Of a stretch of 64,000 bases of DNA, positions 47,780-56,006 are shown piece by piece (position 1 is the first letter of the stretch; every line of letters begins with the position of its first letter). Origin of the DNA: Mesorhizobium sp. 131-2-1 (lineage in GTDB: Bacteria; Pseudomonadota; Alphaproteobacteria; Rhizobiales; Rhizobiaceae); contig NZ_AP023247.1 in NCBI RefSeq assembly GCF_016756535.1, positions 6,448,501 to 6,512,500 on the forward strand, given 5' to 3'. The translations under genes and the position numbers were made by a program. The notes beneath the pieces were generated by a model. That model had not been told where the DNA came from and searched no databases. It was given only the letters and a program-made list of their open reading frames with translations.

Positions 47780-47855
47780 TCAGCCACCTTCAATCGCTGT
47801 AACGAGGTCGACTTCGCACTTGGGCGTGTCCCTGCCCTTCTTCTGGAAGCAAAGA
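47780..47855 (-). pseudogene. HigB/RelE-like toxin, 3' part
   Basis: The minus strand from the left target duplication encodes LCFQKKGRDTPKCEVDLVTAIEGG and a stop. FQKK...TPK.EVDL is the C-terminal signature of HigB/Gp49-type toxins. It joins in frame to the 5' part at 55999-56185 if the IS21 stack and one copy of AGCAAAGA are removed. Confidence 0.75.
47848..47855. repeat. Left target duplication AGCAAAGA
   Basis: Identical to 55999-56006; borders the IS21 terminus TGCGCGTTCCGG. Confidence 0.88.
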
Positions 47856-47965
47856 TGCGCGTTCCGGTAATTCCCGGACAGGCATTCCAGTAATGTCGGG
47901 GACAGCAATTGGAGTGCACCCCCAGACTGAGACAAGGAAAATAGCGGACAGTTTCCCGTGTTAAG

Positions 47966-48835
47966 CTATGCAGCCTTTTCCATCTGTCGCCCGCGTGAAT
48001 GCTTCTGTTCGTATTCCTCCGGACTGAGGTAGTCGAGCGCCGAATGCAGGCGCTCCGTATTGTAAACGGTCTCTATGAAAGCGCCGATGTGCTTGCGGGC
48101 ATCATCTGCATCCTTATAGGCGAGACCTTGCACCTCTTCCTGTTTCAGGGTTTTCATGAAGCTCTCCGCCTTCGCATTGTCGTAAGGATTGCCGACACGA
48201 CTCATGCTCGCCTGGATACCGTGTAGATGCAGAAGTTCGGAGTAGGCCCCGCACGCGTATTGAACTCCGCGGTCGGAATGATGAATGAGGCTCCCGGGTA
48301 CGGGCTGGCGATCAGCGATGGCCATCTCGAGAGCTTCGATGGCAAGGCTTGCTCTAAGATGCGTATCCAGCGCCCATCCGACAACCTTGCGGCTGAACGC
48401 GTCAAGGACAACGGCAAGGAAGGCAAACTCCTCAGCCAGATGCAGGAAGGTGATATCGGCAACCCATAGCTGGTTTACGCCATTGAGGATCATTCCCCTC
48501 GCGAGGTTCTGCACGACTTGCCAACCATGCCTGGAGTTGGTCGTCACAGGAACAAAGGGGCTAGCGCGCAGGCACAACAGATTGTCTTCACGCATGATCC
48601 GCAGAACGCATTTGTGATTAACTTGCCACCCCTCACGCCGAAGCAGGGCTCCAATCCGGCGGTACCCGTAGTGTGTGTTGCCGAGAGCCAGCTTCTGAAT
48701 GAGATCGCGCAAACCCGTCTCGGCTCGACGAGGGGCTGAATCCAGCCAGTGACGGTAATAGCTCGCGCGGCTGACACCAGCGAGCCAGCACATTCTGTCG
48801 ATGTTGAATTCGCCTTGCGACAGGCCGGTCATCAT
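47966..48835 (-). CDS. IS3 OrfB transposase
   Basis: A 289-aa DDE integrase-type protein. Start region CWLAGVSRASYYRHW; catalytic Asp in QLWVADITFLHLAEEF, Asp in LIHHSDRGVQYACGAY, Glu in NAKAESFMKTLKQEEV; the C-terminus has ERLHSALDYLSPEEYE. Its ATG overlaps the orfA stop (ATGA at 48832-48835). Intact. Confidence 0.95.
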   Translation of the reverse strand: MMTGLSQGEFNIDRMCWLAGVSRASYYRHWLDSAPRRAETGLRDLIQKLALGNTHYGYRRIGALLRREGWQVNHKCVLRIMREDNLLCLRASPFVPVTTNSRHGWQVVQNLARGMILNGVNQLWVADITFLHLAEEFAFLAVVLDAFSRKVVGWALDTHLRASLAIEALEMAIADRQPVPGSLIHHSDRGVQYACGAYSELLHLHGIQASMSRVGNPYDNAKAESFMKTLKQEEVQGLAYKDADDARKHIGAFIETVYNTERLHSALDYLSPEEYEQKHSRGRQMEKAA

Positions 48836-49254
48836 CTTTTCAATGACTTTGAAGATGCCGTTTCGCCAGGAGCGCTGCTCCGACGCTGATCTTCCTCGAA
48901 GTGCCGCAAGGCTTCGCGAAAAAAATCGAGATCGAGCTGCTGCTGCCCGACCTTCTGCTCCAGTTCCCTGATCCGGCGCCTGGCCTTGGTCAGTGCCTTT
49001 TCCTGAGGTGCCGGCACATCCACTGCACTCTGCAGCTGTGCGGTCCCGTCAACTCCTGCTGTCGATCTGGCCGGCCGGCCGCGCCGACGTGACTTCAGAT
49101 TACCATGAAGCCTGAGATGATCACGCCACTCGTAAAGTCGTTGGCGACTGATACCAACCTCATCTGCCAACTTGCTGACGGTTTCGCCCGCTTCCATGCG
49201 CCGGAGAAGCTCCAGCTTTTGGTCATCATCAATAACTCTTTGCCGTCCGGCCAT
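48832..49254 (-). CDS. IS3 OrfA
   Basis: A 140-aa OrfA from ATG 49254 (MAGRQRVIDDDQKLELLRRMEAGETVSKLADEVGISRQRLYEWRDHLRLHG) with an HTH and a C-terminal coiled coil (KARRRIRELEQKVGQQQLDLDFFREALRHFEE). The frame continues upstream into istA antisense and is not coding there. Confidence 0.9.
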   Translation of the reverse strand: MAGRQRVIDDDQKLELLRRMEAGETVSKLADEVGISRQRLYEWRDHLRLHGNLKSRRRGRPARSTAGVDGTAQLQSAVDVPAPQEKALTKARRRIRELEQKVGQQQLDLDFFREALRHFEEDQRRSSAPGETASSKSLKR

Positions 49255-49324
49255 GCCCCAGTTTCCTCTCCTTGCGGGGAAACTGTCCGCTATTTTCCTT
49301 GTCTCAGTCTGGGGGTGCACTCCA

Positions 49325-50255
49325 GGCACGCGGCCGGCGCTGTGATGCAGACCGACTATGCCGGACAGACGGTGTCGGTGATCGATCCGATCACCGGCGT
49401 CATTGCGCCGGCGCAGATCTTCGTGGCGGTGCTGGGAGCCTCCAATCTCACCTTCGCCCATGCCAGCCTCAGCCAAAAGCTGCCGGATTGGATCGAAGGA
49501 CAGGTGCAGGCCCTGAGCTTTTTTGGTGGGGTCACCAAAGCGATCGTCTGCGACAATCTGAAGGCTGGTGTCGTCAAGGCCCTGTGGTTCGAGCCGACCT
49601 TGAACGCGACGTTTGCGGCCATGGCCGAGCATTACGACACCACGATCCTGCCGACCCGACCAGCAAAGCCGCGCGACAAAGGCAAGGTCGAGGGCGCAGT
49701 TCTCATCGTCGAACGCTGGATTCTGGCGCGACTGCGCAACCGCCAATTCTTCTCGCTAGCCCTGCTCAATGCGGCGATCGCCGAGCTGCTCGAGGAGCTG
49801 AACAACCGGCCGATGCGCCATGTCGGCAAAAGCCGGCGCGAACTGTTCGAGGAGATCGAGCGGGCGGCGCTCGGCACCCTGCCGGCGACGCCGTTTGAAT
49901 ACGCCGAGTGGAAATCGGCGAAGGTGCATCCCGACTACCATGTCGAGATCGACAAGACGTTCTACTCGGTGCCGCACCGACTGATCGGCCGCACCGTCGA
50001 GGTCCGGCTCACCCACCGGGTGATCGAGATCTTCCATGATCACCAGCGCGTCGCCTGCCATGTTCGCCGATCGCAGCGCTGCGGCCATGTCACCATCGAC
50101 GTTCACATGCCCAAGGCGCATCAGCGCTACGCCAACACCACGCCCGCCAACCTGATCGGCCGGGCGGCTGTCATCGGCCCGAACACCGCGATCCTGGTCG
50201 AACGCATGATGCGCGACAGGCCCCATCCCGAGCAGGGCTATCGTTCGGCCATGGG
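49325..50255 (+). pseudogene. istA, middle part, N-terminus deleted
   Basis: The frame encodes the IstA integrase core from MQTDYAGQTVSVIDPITG (first Asp) through KAIVCDNLKAGVV (second Asp) and KGKVEGAVLIVERW (Glu) to PEQGYRSAMG, where the 2057-bp IS enters. The HTH and about the first 120-150 residues are lost at the IS3 boundary. Confidence 0.9.
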
Positions 50256-52312
50256 TGTCGTGTTGCCTCACCTAATTTTGTTACCGGCTGCCTCACCAAG
50301 AATGTTACCCGCTCGCCAGACGTGCGGAATCTGAAGCGACATACGGCGCTAGGCTGCTGACCTCGCCGATGAGCCGCTGCACGGCTTGTTGTCGCCACGC
50401 CCTTACTCGCTTCTGCAACGTGTGAAGCTGGTGCAAGCTGTATCGTCCGGGATAACGGACCTGGAACTCGACGAGAAGTTCAAGTGCGGTCTGATCCGGA
50501 CGCTCTTCAAGGCATCGTGCCATCTCTTCCCAATGGTCCTTAAAGATGTCGGGACGTCGGCCGCGCGGTTTGTCGTTGAGCCGACGATAAGTCTTTGGCC
50601 CAACGACAACACCGCGCGCGCGAGCCGCTTGGCGCCAGAGATTGACCCGTCGAACGAGTGTTTTGTACTGCTTGCGGGTAAATCGACCTGGAAACTGGAC
50701 GCACAGCTCCTCGAAGAGCTGCGTGGCGTTGATGTTGGGGAATTCCTCCAATCGGCGACAAACGATCGGCCACACCATGCGGAGCGCCTGGACGCGGGCT
50801 TGGCCAGGCTCGGCGTAGACCGGCTTCGGCTTCTCCTGCATCGTCGCGGGAGGAGTGGGTGGGATCACCGGTTTGAGCGTCGGCGAGGGACTCGCAATAA
50901 GGGTTTGTATCGAGACCTTTTGTAGACTTCGCAGGTAACGCGGTTTGGCTTCGATGGAGAAGGTCGGACGGATTTCGCCCGCATGCCAGGCGCTCGATAG
51001 GCTGGCTACGAACGCGGCCAGGTTGGGCGGTTCCGATGTCGCCGGTGGCGGTGTTTCGCCGTCAGCCAGCGCCGCCAGATAAGCCTGGACAGCTCGCATC
51101 TCCTCCAGCAGCTTCAGCGGATCGAGGTCGCCGGCGATCTCGCGCAGCTTGTTCTTGGCGGCCATCGGCATAGCCTCCGCCTGCAGGAGACGCTCGCAGG
51201 GAGTCTGCGGTGGATGATAGCGCTTGGCCACCTTCGCTCCGTCGCGCTGCTTGGCAGCCAGCTTGAACGAGGGCTGGAAGAAGTTCACAAACAGCCGGGA
51301 TGCCCCGTAGAGGCGCGTGATCGCTCTGGCTGCCGCCAAGCCCTCGAAGCGTCGATAGCCCAGGAGCTTCCGAACAACCGCCCCATTTTTCTGCTCGATC
51401 CACGCTTGGTCGTTCTTACGGTAAGGTCGCGAGCGAGTGAGTTCGATGCCGTGACCAAGGCAATATTCGATCAGCCTGTTGTTGACGAACTCGCTGCCAT
51501 TGTCCACATCCAGCGCTCTAAGGGCAAAGGGCAAGCCCATGCGGATGCGCTCGAGTGTCTCGACCACGAGGGTGCCTTCTCGGGCCACGATGGGCGCGGC
51601 CTCCGTCCATCCGCTCGCGATATCGGTCAGAACCAGGCTGTGAACGTAGCTACCGCGGTTGGCCTCTCCGCAATGAGCGACCAGGTCCATTTCCATGCTG
51701 CCGGGAAGCGGCTCGTTCCAGTCGGCAAAGGTGCGCATTTTGATGCGCCGCCGGGGCTCTGGCACAACCCTTGGCTTCTTTTTCGTACGCATGGTGCGCC
51801 TTGGCATCTGGAGCAAGCGGTCGATCGTCGCGGCGCTCATCGACAGGATCTTGTGGCGGATCTCCTCCTCGAGCTTTAGATGTCCATTGCGTTCCAGCGC
51901 CGGCAATAGAATGGGCAGTAGAGCCTTGAGCCGCTTGCCGCAAACTCGGTCGGAAGCTTCCCACAGCACAATCAACGCGGCCCGAGCGGCCTCATCATAG
52001 AGCGACAGGCGTTGGCGGGTCTGACGGTGCTTCCGCTCCGGGTGGCTGTTCAGGACACGGATTGCGGACTTTTCGTGATATCCCGTCGCCGCGATGAACT
52101 CCTCCAAGATCCGGCGCTTGTCCTTGGTCGTTGCGGCCGCATAGCGATCCCTGACCGCATTGGCCAGTTCCATGCGCATGGCATGCGTCATCTTCGTCTT
52201 CATGTTGCCTCCCTGGTGGTGAAGGCACCATGGCGACATGCGCCTTCACGGGTAACATTTTAGGTGAGGCAACGAGCCCGCGCGGTAACATTTTCCTTGA
52301 GGCAATGCGACA
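50256..52312 (-). mobile_element. Integrase-type IS, 2057 bp, with CATGGG duplication
   Basis: Ends read TGTCGTGTTGCCTCACC and, inverted, TGTCGCATTGCCTCAAGG; the flanking duplication is CATGGG (50250-50255; 52313-52318). Each end holds a second copy of the CCTCA...TGTTACC motif about 30 bp inside. Its family is not certain; the transposase resembles IS481/ISNCY-type integrase-core proteins of rhizobia. A detached copy of one end is at 36641-36735. Confidence 0.88.
50305..52203 (-). CDS. Integrase-core transposase
   Basis: A 632-aa protein from ATG 52203, which follows GGGAGGCAAC. An N-terminal helical domain (KDKRRILEEFIAATGYHEKSAIRVLN) is followed by an rve-type core: Asp in GSMEMDLVAHCGEANRGSYVHSL, Asp in ALDVDNGSEFVNN, Glu in NDQAWIEQKNGAVVRKLLGY. 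The long C-terminal part contains two related segments (VCRRLEEFPNINATQLFEELCVQFPGRFTRKQYKTL and MARCLEERPDQTALELLVEFQVRYPGRYSLHQLHTL), an internal duplication that may bind the paired terminal repeats. Confidence 0.9.
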   Translation of the reverse strand: MKTKMTHAMRMELANAVRDRYAAATTKDKRRILEEFIAATGYHEKSAIRVLNSHPERKHRQTRQRLSLYDEAARAALIVLWEASDRVCGKRLKALLPILLPALERNGHLKLEEEIRHKILSMSAATIDRLLQMPRRTMRTKKKPRVVPEPRRRIKMRTFADWNEPLPGSMEMDLVAHCGEANRGSYVHSLVLTDIASGWTEAAPIVAREGTLVVETLERIRMGLPFALRALDVDNGSEFVNNRLIEYCLGHGIELTRSRPYRKNDQAWIEQKNGAVVRKLLGYRRFEGLAAARAITRLYGASRLFVNFFQPSFKLAAKQRDGAKVAKRYHPPQTPCERLLQAEAMPMAAKNKLREIAGDLDPLKLLEEMRAVQAYLAALADGETPPPATSEPPNLAAFVASLSSAWHAGEIRPTFSIEAKPRYLRSLQKVSIQTLIASPSPTLKPVIPPTPPATMQEKPKPVYAEPGQARVQALRMVWPIVCRRLEEFPNINATQLFEELCVQFPGRFTRKQYKTLVRRVNLWRQAARARGVVVGPKTYRRLNDKPRGRRPDIFKDHWEEMARCLEERPDQTALELLVEFQVRYPGRYSLHQLHTLQKRVRAWRQQAVQRLIGEVSSLAPYVASDSARLASG

Positions 52313-52318
52313 CATGGG

Positions 52319-52517
52319 CATCTTGTCGCTATCGCCCCGCTATGGACCCACGCGCCTGGACGCCGCTTGCGAGCGCGCGCTTACCATCAACGCGATCACC
52401 TATTCCTCCGTCAACGCCATCCTCAAAGCCGGCCTCGATCTCATGGGATCGCAGGCCGAACCGGCGAAGCCGACACCAGCCCACGCCAATATCCGCGGCC
52501 GCACCTACTATCAGTGA
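52319..52517 (+). pseudogene. istA, C-terminal part
   Basis: The frame [40 protein letters not shown]... continues IstA exactly after SAMG once the 2057-bp IS and one CATGGG are removed. It ends TYYQ-stop, 16 bp before istB. Confidence 0.92.
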
Positions 52518-52533
52518 AGCAAAGGACGAAAGA

Positions 52534-52867
52534 ATGCTGACAAACCCAACCCTCGATCAAATGCAGGCCCTCGGGCTCCCTGGCATGGCTACCGCCTGGC
52601 GCGAACTGGCCGCAGCTGAACAGAGCAGCGCCAATGAGTTGAGCCGCGACGAATGGCTCGGCCTGATGCTCGACCGGGAGATCGCCATGCGGGCCGACAA
52701 GCGTGTCAGGAACAAGCTCGCCTCGGCCAAGCTGCGCTTCCCCGAAGCATGCATCGAAGACATCGACTTCGCGCCCGCGCGCGGCCTCGACCGCCGCAAC
52801 ACCATGGCGCTCGCCCAAGGCCATTGGCTCAAGGCCCAGGAGAATTTGATCCTCACCGGCCAGACCG
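52534..52867 (+). pseudogene. istB, 5' part
   Basis: ATG 52534 begins [25 protein letters not shown], a typical IstB N-terminus, and runs to [11 protein letters not shown], where the Walker A loop is cut by the serine-recombinase unit. Continues at 55439. Confidence 0.92.
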
Positions 52868-52897
52868 ATCCCACGACATAATGCACACCTCGCTATG

Positions 52898-54967
52898 TTA
52901 TTGAAAAAGCTGGATCTGCTGATCCTGTGATTGTGATAATGGACTGTGTCCGCTCCTGCCGGAATGGTGCTGGATATCGAGTTGCTCGATATCTTCATGA
53001 CGGATGATCCAGGGCGTACCCTTGCAATACTGCTCGGCCTTCAGATCGCCGGCGCGGATCATGCGCAGCACGGTCATTGGCCGCAGCCCGAGCTTTGCAG
53101 CCGTTTCCTGCAATGTATACTCGCCGCGCTCCGACCGTTCGTCCTTTTTGTAGACGGCGATGTCGTGCTGGTTGCGGAAAGTGCAGACACGGGACTGCGT
53201 CCATCCGTTCTGACGACCCGTGGTTTTGCCGAGCCGGTTGAGAAGCGATGCGATCGCTCTATCCGGCAATTGGCGTGCCAGGGCACGGATCAGTTCCTCG
53301 ATGTCCGGCGGGGCGCCCCAACGGTGATGGCCTGCCTTGTTCTTCCTGACCGAAAGCGCGGTATGGTCGCCGCCCTGCCAATGCACCAGCATTTTGATGT
53401 GGTCGTCTTCGATGGCGACGACAATCTCGCGGATCACGGCGCGGATGATCCGCTTGCGCGTGGTGGCGGTGGCGTTGGCATGATGCCATGCCAATTCGAG
53501 ATCGCCGCCCATGCGCAGCAGGCTCCGCCGTTCCTCTTCTCCCAGAGCCTCAGGCTTGTGGCGGTCGAGCGCGTCAAGCTCGTCCTGACGCTCGCGGACG
53601 GCTACGAGCGCGGCATTCCAGCGTCGCTCTAGTTCGCCTGCTACAAGCCGGTTGTCCGGGTCGACGGCGTCATACTGGCGGCGTGCATGGGCGGCTTCAT
53701 AACGTGCTTGCTCGAGTGCGAGCTCCACATGGCGCCGCTTCTCTCCAGCCTGCACGGTGGTGGTCTCGATGGCCTTGATCGCCGCTTCGATGCCGAGCGG
53801 TTGAAGGCGTTGAAGAACCTCCGCGCTGACCGCCTGATCGACCCGCAACGATCCGAAGCCAATGCACGGGTCGGTTCCGTGGTTGAGCTGCGCTCCGCGG
53901 CAATGATAGCGCCCCGTATTGCCGTTGCTGCCGGAATAAGAGACGTGCAGCTTGCGGCCGCAATGGCCGCAGCGCAAGAGACCGCCGAGCAGCAACTCGC
54001 CCCGGCGAAGAGCACCGCGCGGCACCAAGCCTTTGCTTGTGGCATTGTCCGTGATCAGGCGCTGATTCCTCTCAAAATCGTGCCAGCTCAGGTAACCTTC
54101 GTGATGGTCGATGAGCAAGACCTCCCAGTCGGCGCGATCGCGCCTGATCCCACGCAAAATCCGTTTGCGTCCGGCCTCTATGGTGACTTTGCTGCAGGTT
54201 CGCCCGAACGCATAGGCGCCGGCGTAGATCGGGTTGGTGAGAATGTGGTGCACAGTATTGTAGACGGGCAGCTTCCAGACGATCGCCCTGTCCGCCGCGC
54301 GCGTGTAATTTACGGCAGGGAGCATAATGCCCTCGCTGCGCAGCCACAGATGCACCTGCCGGATGCTCTGCAGTTCGTCGAAACGCCGGAATACAAGATC
54401 GATCGCCTCGCGGATCCGCAGGTCCGGGTCTTTCTCGATCCGGTTCCGGCCCGACTTGACGTAACCGATCGCCACCGTCAGGAAAAGTTCGCCCCGGCGT
54501 GCCTTCTGCTTCAGGGCTTCGATCGAGCGGGCCCGCAGGATCGAAAGCTCCAGTTCGCTCATCGTGCCCTTCATGCCGAGCAGCAACCTGTCGTTGGGAT
54601 GACGCGGTTCGTAGATGCCGTCCTCATCTATGATGAGCGTTCCGACAAGGCCACAAAACTCGATGAGCGTATGCCAGTCCCGGCCATTGCGGGCCAGCCG
54701 GGAGGCTTCAATGGCGAGGACCGCACCAACCCGACCTTCGCAGATAGCCGCCAGAAGCTTCTCAAAGCCCGGACGGCTGATGCCAGACCCTGAACGACCG
54801 AGATCTTCATCGATGACGATGGCTTCTTTCCAGCCAAGGGACCGCGCTCGCTCGGCAAGGCCATATTGGCGTCGCCGGCTCTCTGGATTGTTGACGAGTT
54901 GATCGGCCGTCGACTGCCGGACATAGACATAGGCGCCGCGCGCGAGATGTTCAGCGGTGATCTTCAT
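52898..54967 (-). CDS. Large serine recombinase
   Basis: A 689-aa site-specific recombinase. The resolvase domain has the catalytic Ser in YVYVRQSTADQ and arginines in EASRLARNGRDW; the recombinase domain spans about 165-290 (ILTNPIYAGAYAFGR); a zinc ribbon follows with CGHCGRKL...YHCRG; then a coiled coil; the C-terminus adds an HTH (EYTLQETAAKLGLRPMTVLRMIRAGDL). ATG overlaps the preceding ORF's stop (ATGA). It is likely the integrase of its own unit. Confidence 0.95.
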   Translation of the reverse strand: MKITAEHLARGAYVYVRQSTADQLVNNPESRRRQYGLAERARSLGWKEAIVIDEDLGRSGSGISRPGFEKLLAAICEGRVGAVLAIEASRLARNGRDWHTLIEFCGLVGTLIIDEDGIYEPRHPNDRLLLGMKGTMSELELSILRARSIEALKQKARRGELFLTVAIGYVKSGRNRIEKDPDLRIREAIDLVFRRFDELQSIRQVHLWLRSEGIMLPAVNYTRAADRAIVWKLPVYNTVHHILTNPIYAGAYAFGRTCSKVTIEAGRKRILRGIRRDRADWEVLLIDHHEGYLSWHDFERNQRLITDNATSKGLVPRGALRRGELLLGGLLRCGHCGRKLHVSYSGSNGNTGRYHCRGAQLNHGTDPCIGFGSLRVDQAVSAEVLQRLQPLGIEAAIKAIETTTVQAGEKRRHVELALEQARYEAAHARRQYDAVDPDNRLVAGELERRWNAALVAVRERQDELDALDRHKPEALGEEERRSLLRMGGDLELAWHHANATATTRKRIIRAVIREIVVAIEDDHIKMLVHWQGGDHTALSVRKNKAGHHRWGAPPDIEELIRALARQLPDRAIASLLNRLGKTTGRQNGWTQSRVCTFRNQHDIAVYKKDERSERGEYTLQETAAKLGLRPMTVLRMIRAGDLKAEQYCKGTPWIIRHEDIEQLDIQHHSGRSGHSPLSQSQDQQIQLFQ

Positions 54968-55124
54968 GATCTGCCTCCCGTTCCGTCTGGCTCACCACCG
55001 CTTCCCTCAGCAAGGTCTCGATCAGCGGGAGGGTGCGTTCCCGGACTTCGCCTGGAAGACTCGATGGCGGAGCCTTCGTGGAAAACAGGTCTGGCTGGTC
55101 GGTTCGGCATTGCCTGCGCTGCAT
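54951..55124 (-). CDS. Small accessory ORF of serine recombinase unit
   Basis: A 57-aa frame starting [21 protein letters not shown] and ending [11 protein letters not shown]. It overlaps the recombinase start by 17 bp and the longer ORF 54964-55458 in another frame. Similar short proteins precede recombinases of this type in rhizobia, as far as I recall; function unknown. Confidence 0.5.
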   Translation of the reverse strand: MQRRQCRTDQPDLFSTKAPPSSLPGEVRERTLPLIETLLREAVVSQTEREADHEDHR

Positions 55125-55458
55125 GGTCGTCTCCTGGCTGGCGTGAGTCGCTCTGCAGAAAACGTAGACCTGCATCCAGCTCGCTGCGCAGGTCGCGCAG
55201 GCATGAAAGGGGAAAACGGGGCGCCTCGCGAACCGCCATCGTCAGGGCGATCTCTTCCGTCATCCAGATCGGAATCAGCGCCAGGCTGCCATCCGGTTGT
55301 CGCCCGACATAGGCCGGCTCACCGCAATAACGCTGACGGCCTGTGACAAAAATCTCCCCGCCCGAACGCGGATGAAAGGCGTAACGGACAATCTTCTTTG
55401 CCTCGCCATCCTGATAACGGGCATTATGAGCCCAGTCCGACCGGAACTGGAAAATCAT
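54964..55458 (-). CDS. DUF5372-like accessory protein
   Basis: A 164-aa frame. [51 protein letters not shown] resembles DUF5372 proteins often encoded before such recombinases. The only good start (ATG 55458) lies beyond the unit border inside istB, and the final 40 residues overlap the small ORF in another frame, so the true C-terminus may be shorter. Confidence 0.6.
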
Positions 55459-55892
55459 GGTTGGCCTGCGCCTTCGGACGGCAGGCGGCCCGGCTCGACC
55501 ATTCCGTTCTCTATGTGCGCGTACCGCGCATGTTCGAGGATCTGGCGCTCGCCCGCCTCGACGGGCGCTTCCCCCGGCTCATCGAAAAACTTACCCGAGT
55601 GCATTTGCTCATCCTCGACGATTTTGGCTCCCACAGCCTCTCGGACCAGCAGCGCTTCCATCTCTTCGAAATCGTCGAGGAGAGATATCGCCGCCGCTCA
55701 ACCATCATCGCCGCTCAGACCACCGTGGACAAATGGCATGACCTGATCAATGACCCCACCGTCGCCGACGCCATTCTTGACAGGATCGTTCACAATGCTC
55801 ACCGCATTGCCCTGCAAGGCGACAGTCTGCGAAAGCAAAAAACGAGGCCCCTCTTGACCGGCGCCGAAAACACCGAAATCAATCAATCCTGA
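55439..55892 (+). pseudogene. istB, 3' part
   Basis: Begins inside Walker A ([19 protein letters not shown]) and runs through Walker B ([12 protein letters not shown]) to [14 protein letters not shown] and a stop at 55892. Together with 52534-52867 it makes a full IstB. Confidence 0.92.
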
Positions 55893-55998
55893 ACTCAACG
55901 AGGCTATCGAGAACCAGCGACCCCAGGCTGTCCCGACATTACCGGAACGCCTGTCCCGTATTTAGCGGAATCGCTGTCCTGAGTTGGCGGAATGCGCA

Positions 55999-56006
55999 AG
56001 CAAAGA
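55999..56006. repeat. Right target duplication AGCAAAGA
   Basis: Identical to 47848-47855, directly after IS21 end GGAATGCGCA. Confidence 0.88.

Follow-up and report, generated by a model that had tools for sequence, protein, structure and literature searches.

A probable site-specific element of the large serine recombinase class at the istB P-loop of an IS21, and its relatives in the recombination genes of other mobile elements

We focus here on a stretch of 64,000 nucleotides (hereafter the window; positions 6448501-6512500 of the larger of two contigs) in the 7.1-Mb genome of Mesorhizobium sp. 131-2-1, presumably a plant symbiont. Within the window an IS21 insertion sequence (IS) carries three inner insertions, one of them splitting its ATPase gene istB. 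Comparison with related loci makes it very probable that this insertion (52866-55439) is an autonomous mobile element, site-specific and centred on a large serine recombinase, that homes to the P-loop codon of istB. The element has fixed ends with inverted arms, its near-identical copies sit in different istB genes at one P-loop codon, and uninterrupted versions of the site are found elsewhere. Its relatives fall into clades that each keep, for the most part, to a single motif, in istB, in IS66 tnpC, in a tyrosine or serine recombinase gene or in IS110, with an IS91-type gene as a single case.

The element and its recombinase

The element and its ends are laid out as follows.

52864..52865: 2-bp core AC, attL side
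52866..52884: attL arm, CGATCCCACGACATAATGC, constant within the clade of the window element
52866..55439, reverse strand: serine-recombinase mobile element, 2,574 bp, which with the 2-bp core makes 2,576 bp
52898..54967, reverse strand: large serine recombinase of 689 residues, with Resolvase, Recombinase and zinc-ribbon domains and a C-terminal excisionase-like helix-turn-helix
54964..55439, reverse strand: open frame upstream of the recombinase, whose start it overlaps; the ATG listed for it (55458) is beyond the element
55421..55439: attR arm, GCATTATGAGCCCAGTCCG, an imperfect inverted repeat of the attL arm
55440..55441: 2-bp core AC, attR side

Both ends consist of 19-bp arms, imperfectly inverted, around the 2-bp core, and across the family the attL arm takes the form NN, 11 nucleotides and then a CATAATGC-like sequence. 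The junction sequence recurs at a spacing of 2,576 bp, and two IS21 copies, L145 (genome G159) and L146 (genome G288), are uninterrupted at the site. An earlier note on this DNA had described a 2,576-bp serine recombinase unit splitting istB as one of three independent insertions; the unit is real, as L145 and L146 demonstrate, but it is not equivalent to a random hit, its family favouring fixed motifs in transposition genes.

The predicted protein has the domain order of a large serine recombinase, with a Resolvase domain (residues 12-160) followed by Recombinase and zinc-ribbon domains and then by the helix-turn-helix (residues 617-662; Pfam). Ser19, in YVRQS, is what we take to be the catalytic serine, going by the motif YxRxS, and together with R17, S89, R90 and the zinc cysteines it is near-invariant across 98 aligned recombinases. 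The excisionase-like C terminus exceeds the cut-off of HTH_17 and matches phrog_66, and TIGR01764, a model for such a tail, gave E ≤ 0.01 in four of the six recombinases tested and passed its own cut-off in one. The only sequence match in the PDB is 3guv_A, a resolvase-family catalytic domain (E 3.4e-7). DUF4368, a domain associated with the clade of the TndX-like transposases, is absent from the six Pfam matches of the recombinase (E up to 1), and the IS607 model scores 19.2 bits against a cut-off of 110, the catalytic domain coming first. The unit encodes no DDE transposase: its large gene is the serine recombinase, and its small frames are without a family match in Pfam, as are those upstream of the recombinase in the Pfam, NCBIfam and phrog searches. 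A 'hypothetical protein' is annotated where the upstream frame would lie in L012, L160, L164, L165 and L169, a likeness of position.

One codon in many istB genes

A 100% identical copy of the recombinase is present in the same genome (L001/L147), and near-identical copies occur on Mesorhizobium and Sinorhizobium plasmids, L008 and L009 both being from S. meliloti RU11/001. The junction pairs of L001 and of L007-L011 all fall in other istB genes, invariably at the P-loop G-x-[STP]-G-x-G-K, with the left side shortened in L010. Among 20 plasmid records of at least 95% protein identity, 16 were read (H1-H12 and H17-H20, not H13-H16), each at its best place only. The element occupies the istB P-loop in 15 of these 16, in the orientation of the window in 14 and reversed in one (L164, CP140947.1 267218-271645), which has the same dinucleotide at both ends. 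The sixteenth copy, L160 (CP140937.1 1446446-1450873), lies between the genes of a BCCT transporter and a formylglycine-generating enzyme and ends in the dinucleotides AA and AG.

Ordinary nested insertion would have the recombinase unit hit istB by chance, just as an IS3-family element and a 2,057-bp IS hit the neighbouring gene istA, such nesting being common where mobile elements abound. The presence of these two further insertions in the same IS21 is what such a reading expects, and so is the location of L160, but it does not account for 15 of 16 plasmid copies at the same istB codon, nor for both halves of a recombination gene flanking 61 of 80 family loci. With a codon-exact position repeated in unlike istB genes, we reject chance nesting as highly improbable. 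A second possibility is a single ancient istB insertion that spread with IS21, the istB genes having come to differ through divergence. Such descent would fit the one istB group shared by the S. meliloti records L008, L161, L162, L163, L166 and L167; against it, elements of about 98-100% nucleotide identity sit in istB genes that differ far more, and uninterrupted copies exist whose flanks are 100% identical for L009 (L158) and L010 (L155) and 99.8-100% identical for L011 (L154). On this flank comparison descent from a single insertion is rejected as well, and we regard it as extremely improbable. Grouped by their istB right flanks at 95% nucleotide identity, 17 loci (those of the plasmid records except L160 and L164, plus the window, L147 and L013) make nine groups, of which one, L165, is just 20 of 494 positions apart from the L008 group. 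Inspection for hitchhiking from the outer ends of S. meliloti composites gave no clear proof of it.

The consensus of the istB site, taken over 27 loci, carries a mean of 0.86 bits per position in its left half and 1.28 in its right half, after rows with doubtful ends had been dropped by hand (L002, L004, L010, L015, L028, L037, L038, L044, L047, L067 and L074).

Pre-insertion sites and the 2-bp core

Pre-insertion sites were examined for the window and for five copies, L007-L011, and in each of the five both flanks of the insertion match one related istB without the element. Integration is precise, and an attB can be identified as an uninterrupted site, as in large serine recombinase elements. 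The related genes, the left and right flank identities and the core dinucleotides are as follows.

Window (against L145/L146): target AC; both ends AC
L007 (against L152/L153; 94 and 97% to L152): target CC; left end AC, right end CC
L008 (against L156; 99.6 and 99.6% in the part adjoining the element): target AG; both ends AG
L009 (against L157 and L158; 100 and 100% to L158, S. meliloti SM11): target AC; left end AG, right end AC
L010 (against L155; 100 and 100%): target CC; right end AG; left istB flank shortened by about 15 bp
L011 (against L154; 100 and 99.8%): target CC; left end CC, right end AC

In the three informative cases, L007, L009 and L011, one end carries the dinucleotide of the target and the other a foreign one, which is the outcome expected if unequal cores were exchanged with a 2-bp stagger and the DNA then replicated. 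Unequal cores might instead arise without mismatched strand exchange, through homologous recombination between copies that swaps their flanks, and L022 and L039 do seem, by eye, to join halves of different istB types. For L007, L009, L010 and L011, however, both flanks match one uninterrupted istB; we reject a flank swap for these four and keep it for L022 and L039, and as an explanation of the unequal cores at large we consider it unlikely.

At the other targets, the loci with recognised ends have equal cores in 14 of 16 cases for IS66, 5 of 5 for serine recombinases, 6 of 7 for tyrosine recombinases, 2 of 2 for IS110 and 1 of 1 for IS91. Some of the unequal istB cores are mis-called ends (at least L015, L037 and L074); those of L007, L009 and L011 are truly unequal. 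On reading the junctions, an end was found to be mis-called or absent in at least L003, L004, L015, L023, L027, L028, L036, L037, L043, L047, L052, L063, L067, L068, L072, L074, L079, L082, L083, L091 and L092.

A separate observation concerns L144, a further copy of this IS21 in the window's genome (G000:C1 near 6375397), whose istB is missing 20 bp over the P-loop core relative to window positions 52853-52867 and 55444-55448. This loss may be the scar of a failed or reversed insertion, or may be due to chance.

Relatives in the recombination genes of other mobile elements

Among 189 relatives detected in one scan of genome contigs, the top 80 were analysed (best-segment identity 55-98%). Of these, 61 are flanked by the two halves of a recombination gene from another mobile element, 14 by one half, in several cases because of a contig end or a truncated recombinase copy, and five by none. 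The target genes are distributed as follows.

Two-sided loci (61): istB 28, IS66 tnpC 19, tyrosine recombinase 7, large serine recombinase of the same kind 5, IS110 1, IS91-type Y2 transposase 1
One-sided loci (14): istB 5, IS66 5, tyrosine recombinase 3, IS110 1

Pfam, which is independent of our in-house profiles, named nine of ten representative pieces as expected, the tenth, of 41 residues, finding no match. The sites themselves, with the core between dashes where the element reads left to right, are these.

IS66: LFAGS-GA-(D/E)GG
Large serine recombinase: LLLGL-AA-KGTMSE
IS91: YALKSP-TA-YRDG
Tyrosine recombinase, reverse sense: the Leu-Gly-His box after IQVL
IS110, reverse sense: Gly-Pro after SVPGI

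Five loci (L084-L086, L088 and L090) are family members that have inserted into genes for large serine recombinases like their own: the family preys on its own relatives.

The wider searches returned a relative at E ≤ 1e-150 in 30 of 146 genomes across the genus and at E ≤ 1e-200 in 3 of 151 in a family-wide draw, the window's own genome being included in both counts. Twenty far relatives (L104-L123, 42-44% identity) have IS66 pieces on both sides in 14 cases, on one side in three and on neither in three, with the element in either orientation; L104-L110 look like a single insertion present in several genomes, and at L114 a tyrosine-recombinase piece outscores the IS66 piece on one side.

A quick tree of 98 recombinases was built under LG+G4, with support from the Shimodaira-Hasegawa-like approximate likelihood ratio test (SH-aLRT) and no bootstrap; it omits L074, L087, L092 and the same-genome duplicate L001, and takes in 12 loci from the wider genus and family searches. 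Users of tyrosine recombinase, IS110 and serine recombinase genes make one clade each, IS66 users make two (one in the core, the other of the far relatives), and istB users are placed around these clades. The class of target tracks the phylogeny of the recombinases: 89 labelled rows can be explained by six changes of target, whereas 100 shuffles required 34-47, and the 81 labelled core rows need five changes for six classes, which is the minimum. Long branches, among them L003, L089, L072 and L073, are unsure in placement. L066 and L071 form a separate small recombinase clade, and near L148, the locus of L003, lie an IS66 Orf2-like piece, a phage-integrase gene and an ABC transporter gene.

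It could be argued that transposition genes are hit merely as the commonest dispensable genes, the recombinases recognizing GC-rich sites around a 2-bp core, with no selection for mobile-element targets. The weakly conserved left half of the istB targets (0.86 against 1.28 bits) and the off-target use at L160 lend this some weight, but whole clades hold to one motif of one gene family, and the far relatives too are found in IS66, 14 of 20 on both sides, several of these being the same insertion in different genomes. We find this explanation doubtful, though not without some plausibility.

The outer IS21 and the two insertions in istA

The IS21 that houses the element lies between queC and the gene of a pyridoxal-phosphate enzyme, and is composed as follows.

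47848..47855: left 8-bp target duplication of the IS21, AGCAAAGA; the L144 and L146 copies have different duplications outside
47856..55998, forward strand: IS21 copy with its inner insertions, 8,143 bp (2,622 bp in the uninterrupted L146)
47910..49324, reverse strand: IS3-family element, 1,415 bp (NCBIfam transpos_IS3, 291 bits; IS3 records in plasmids)
49325..50255, forward strand: istA middle piece, integrase core and Mu-type C domain (Pfam; NCBIfam transpos_IS21, 207.8 bits; uninterrupted copies)
50256..52312, reverse strand: 2,057-bp IS (empty sites in L144, L145 and L146; full-length copies in plasmids)
50305-52239, reverse strand: 644-residue DDE transposase of the 2,057-bp IS, with an rve domain
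52313..52517, forward strand: istA 3' piece
52534..52865, forward strand: istB N-terminal piece (PF01695), stopping at the P-loop after LTGQ plus AC, bases one and two of the following codon
55440..55892, forward strand: istB C-terminal piece (PF01695 profile positions 100-235)
55999..56006: right 8-bp target duplication of the IS21, AGCAAAGA

An assignment to the IS21 family follows from istA (DDE, Mu-type C domain) preceding istB (AAA+ ATPase) and from a short target duplication beyond TG...CA ends, the sequence beginning TGCGCG and finishing TGCGCA; the duplication measures 8 bp in the window and 7 bp in both L144 and L146. All three copies differ in their flanks, and each has its own duplication (GCTCGAT in L144, ACCTGGC in L146) beyond ends that are common to them, which makes AGCAAAGA a target duplication, not part of the terminal repeats. 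The earlier note's bounding of an 8,143-bp IS21 by 8-bp duplications at 47848 and 55999 thus holds, and the concern that the repeats might belong to the terminal repeats is removed. Three blocks, 49325-50255, 52313-52867 and 55439-55998, align collinearly with single IS21 copies, at identities of 94.2, 99.5 and 98.4% to L146 and of 99.7 (from 49678 on only), 99.8 and 99.8% to L145. L146 has none of the three inner insertions, and its alignment overlaps by 6 bp (CATGGG) at the 2,057-bp IS and by 5 bp (GACCG) at the recombinase unit; L144, the same IS21 about 117 kb away, is without both the 2,057-bp IS and the recombinase unit. The naturally uninterrupted L145 and L146 show that the istA and istB pieces come from one IS21 copy. 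As had been proposed, the IS21 came first and the three insertions later; their order among themselves is not readable from the window. A scan of the window against Rfam gave no match.

The two insertions in istA differ in what they did to the gene. At the IS3, which had been described as replacing the 5' part of istA, the element is indeed there, but comparison with L146 and L144 indicates an insertion plus a loss: its ends carry no duplication, and the adjacent 548 bp or so of the 5' part, present in L146, are gone. In L144 this IS3 is also present, inverted and no more than 1 bp from its position in the window; there it is flanked by a 4-bp duplication of its own, GCAA, and the istA 5' part is retained, so the IS3 entered this IS21 spot twice or was rearranged there. 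An IS3 reversed and 1 bp apart in two IS21 copies raises the possibility of an IS3 hot spot in the IS21 terminal repeats. As for the 2,057-bp IS, the proposal that it split istA with a CATGGG duplication is confirmed by empty sites: the repeats lie at 50250-50255 and 52313-52318, a single CATGGG stands at the corresponding site of L144 and L146, and in L145 the two sides run on without a break, overlapping by 6 bp. Its 644-residue transposase stays under the NCBIfam cut-offs of all four families listed, the nearest being IS481 (46.5 of 224 bits), and of 12 matching plasmid records two contain the IS at 95-99% identity, one short 76.5% match being labelled ISNCY.

Weighing the reading and a proposed mechanism

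Several observations weigh against the reading of a family homing to transposition-gene motifs, for which the evidence is entirely comparative. First of all, site choice is not absolute, L160 lying outside istB. Second, the profiles assign no target class to five of the 80 loci (L020, L063, L066, L071 and L081), no target is seen for L118, L122 and L123 among the far relatives, and none for L003 (L148, G000:C1:6413000-6421500), a 44% relative in the same genome. Third, the class profiles were built from pieces of the same loci, with weak assignments for L033, L044 and L074, and the class of L082 and L083 was set by hand. Finally, the cores are not uniform: L164 has equal end dinucleotides though a related uninterrupted gene has CC, and opposite parentage of the two cores is thus not universal; L010 has lost some 15 bp of istB on its left; and cores are equal in just 17 of the 33 two-sided istB loci with recognised ends, the window and the plasmid loci included.

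If the element does home to istB, its recombinase would join the two ends into a circle, and the joint (attP) would pair with the DNA of the motif (attB), both being cut with a 2-bp stagger and rejoined, to leave a split target gene with a 2-bp core at both ends. The cores would not need to match; a mismatched core could enter and then separate at replication, giving the incoming dinucleotide at one end and that of the target at the other. The excisionase-like tail might, at a guess, aid excision. As IS21 requires IstB, the IS21 copy would be disabled by an element in istB, and the parasite would ride in genes that are dispensable to the cell and multicopy on plasmids and islands. A broader proposal, which we offer tentatively and hold to be somewhat short of probable, is that these elements are a lineage of minimal transposons preying on transposons, with recombinases that read the DNA of catalytic or other conserved transposition-gene motifs and split these wherever present, and with rare, clade-founding switches of prey made through tolerance of mismatched cores. 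If it hit all copies within a cell, such a predatory lineage would keep insertion sequences naturally in check, and the 20-bp loss over the L144 istB core would then be the repair scar of a cut by the element.

The family adds a type of interaction between mobile elements, in which recombinases are addressed to the conserved core of the recombination genes of others, those of their own relatives included. The natural series of targets (istB, IS66, tyrosine and serine recombinases, IS110 and IS91) is suited to asking how large serine recombinases switch target and if they need a match of the 2-bp core. Some of the IS21 and IS66 copies that look 'broken' in rhizobia would be accounted for as hits by one family, not decay, and recombinases with a known natural series of attB sites could be of practical use in DNA integration.

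Comparison with known systems

Integrases of the phiC31/Bxb1 type combine Resolvase, Recombinase and zinc-ribbon domains. The window element resembles them in its domain set, in the use of one conserved-gene site per clade and in ends that, once joined, are attP-like; it differs in its size of about 2.6 kb, with little but the recombinase, in targeting transposition genes and in core dinucleotides that often differ. Selfish DNA at conserved motifs of IS and ATPase genes is also known from the group II intron RmInt1 in ISRm2011-2 and from inteins in P-loop genes. Those are spliced from RNA or protein, whereas the window element leaves the gene split, with no sign of splicing seen.

A survey of large serine recombinases (Durrant et al. 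2022; PMC10083194) reports, in its main text, that diverse clusters share a target gene, one of them annotated as a magnesium chelatase/ATP-dependent protease, and associates DUF4368 with the clade that holds TndX-like transposases; 'IstB', 'IS66', 'IS110' and 'insertion sequence' do not occur in that main text. IS607-family transposons (PMC4058570) are likewise small elements with a serine recombinase, a proposed circle intermediate and a 2-bp overlap, but their DNA-binding domain lies ahead of the catalytic one, whereas the window recombinase begins with its catalytic domain and has a single motif as its target. The open-access literature searched, partly by titles and abstract openings, with subscription papers and specialist IS databases not covered, gave no description of serine-recombinase elements lying at motifs of transposition genes. 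The nearest idea in the literature covered is that of the helper-embedded phage-inducible chromosomal islands (PICIs), which, according to Tommasini et al. 2023 (PMC10111431), are phage satellites in prophage late genes whose excision was observed. They too have an integrase clade with subclades that each use one site in the genes of another mobile element, but where PICIs are phage satellites in prophage late genes, the elements described here are minimal serine-recombinase elements in transposition genes.

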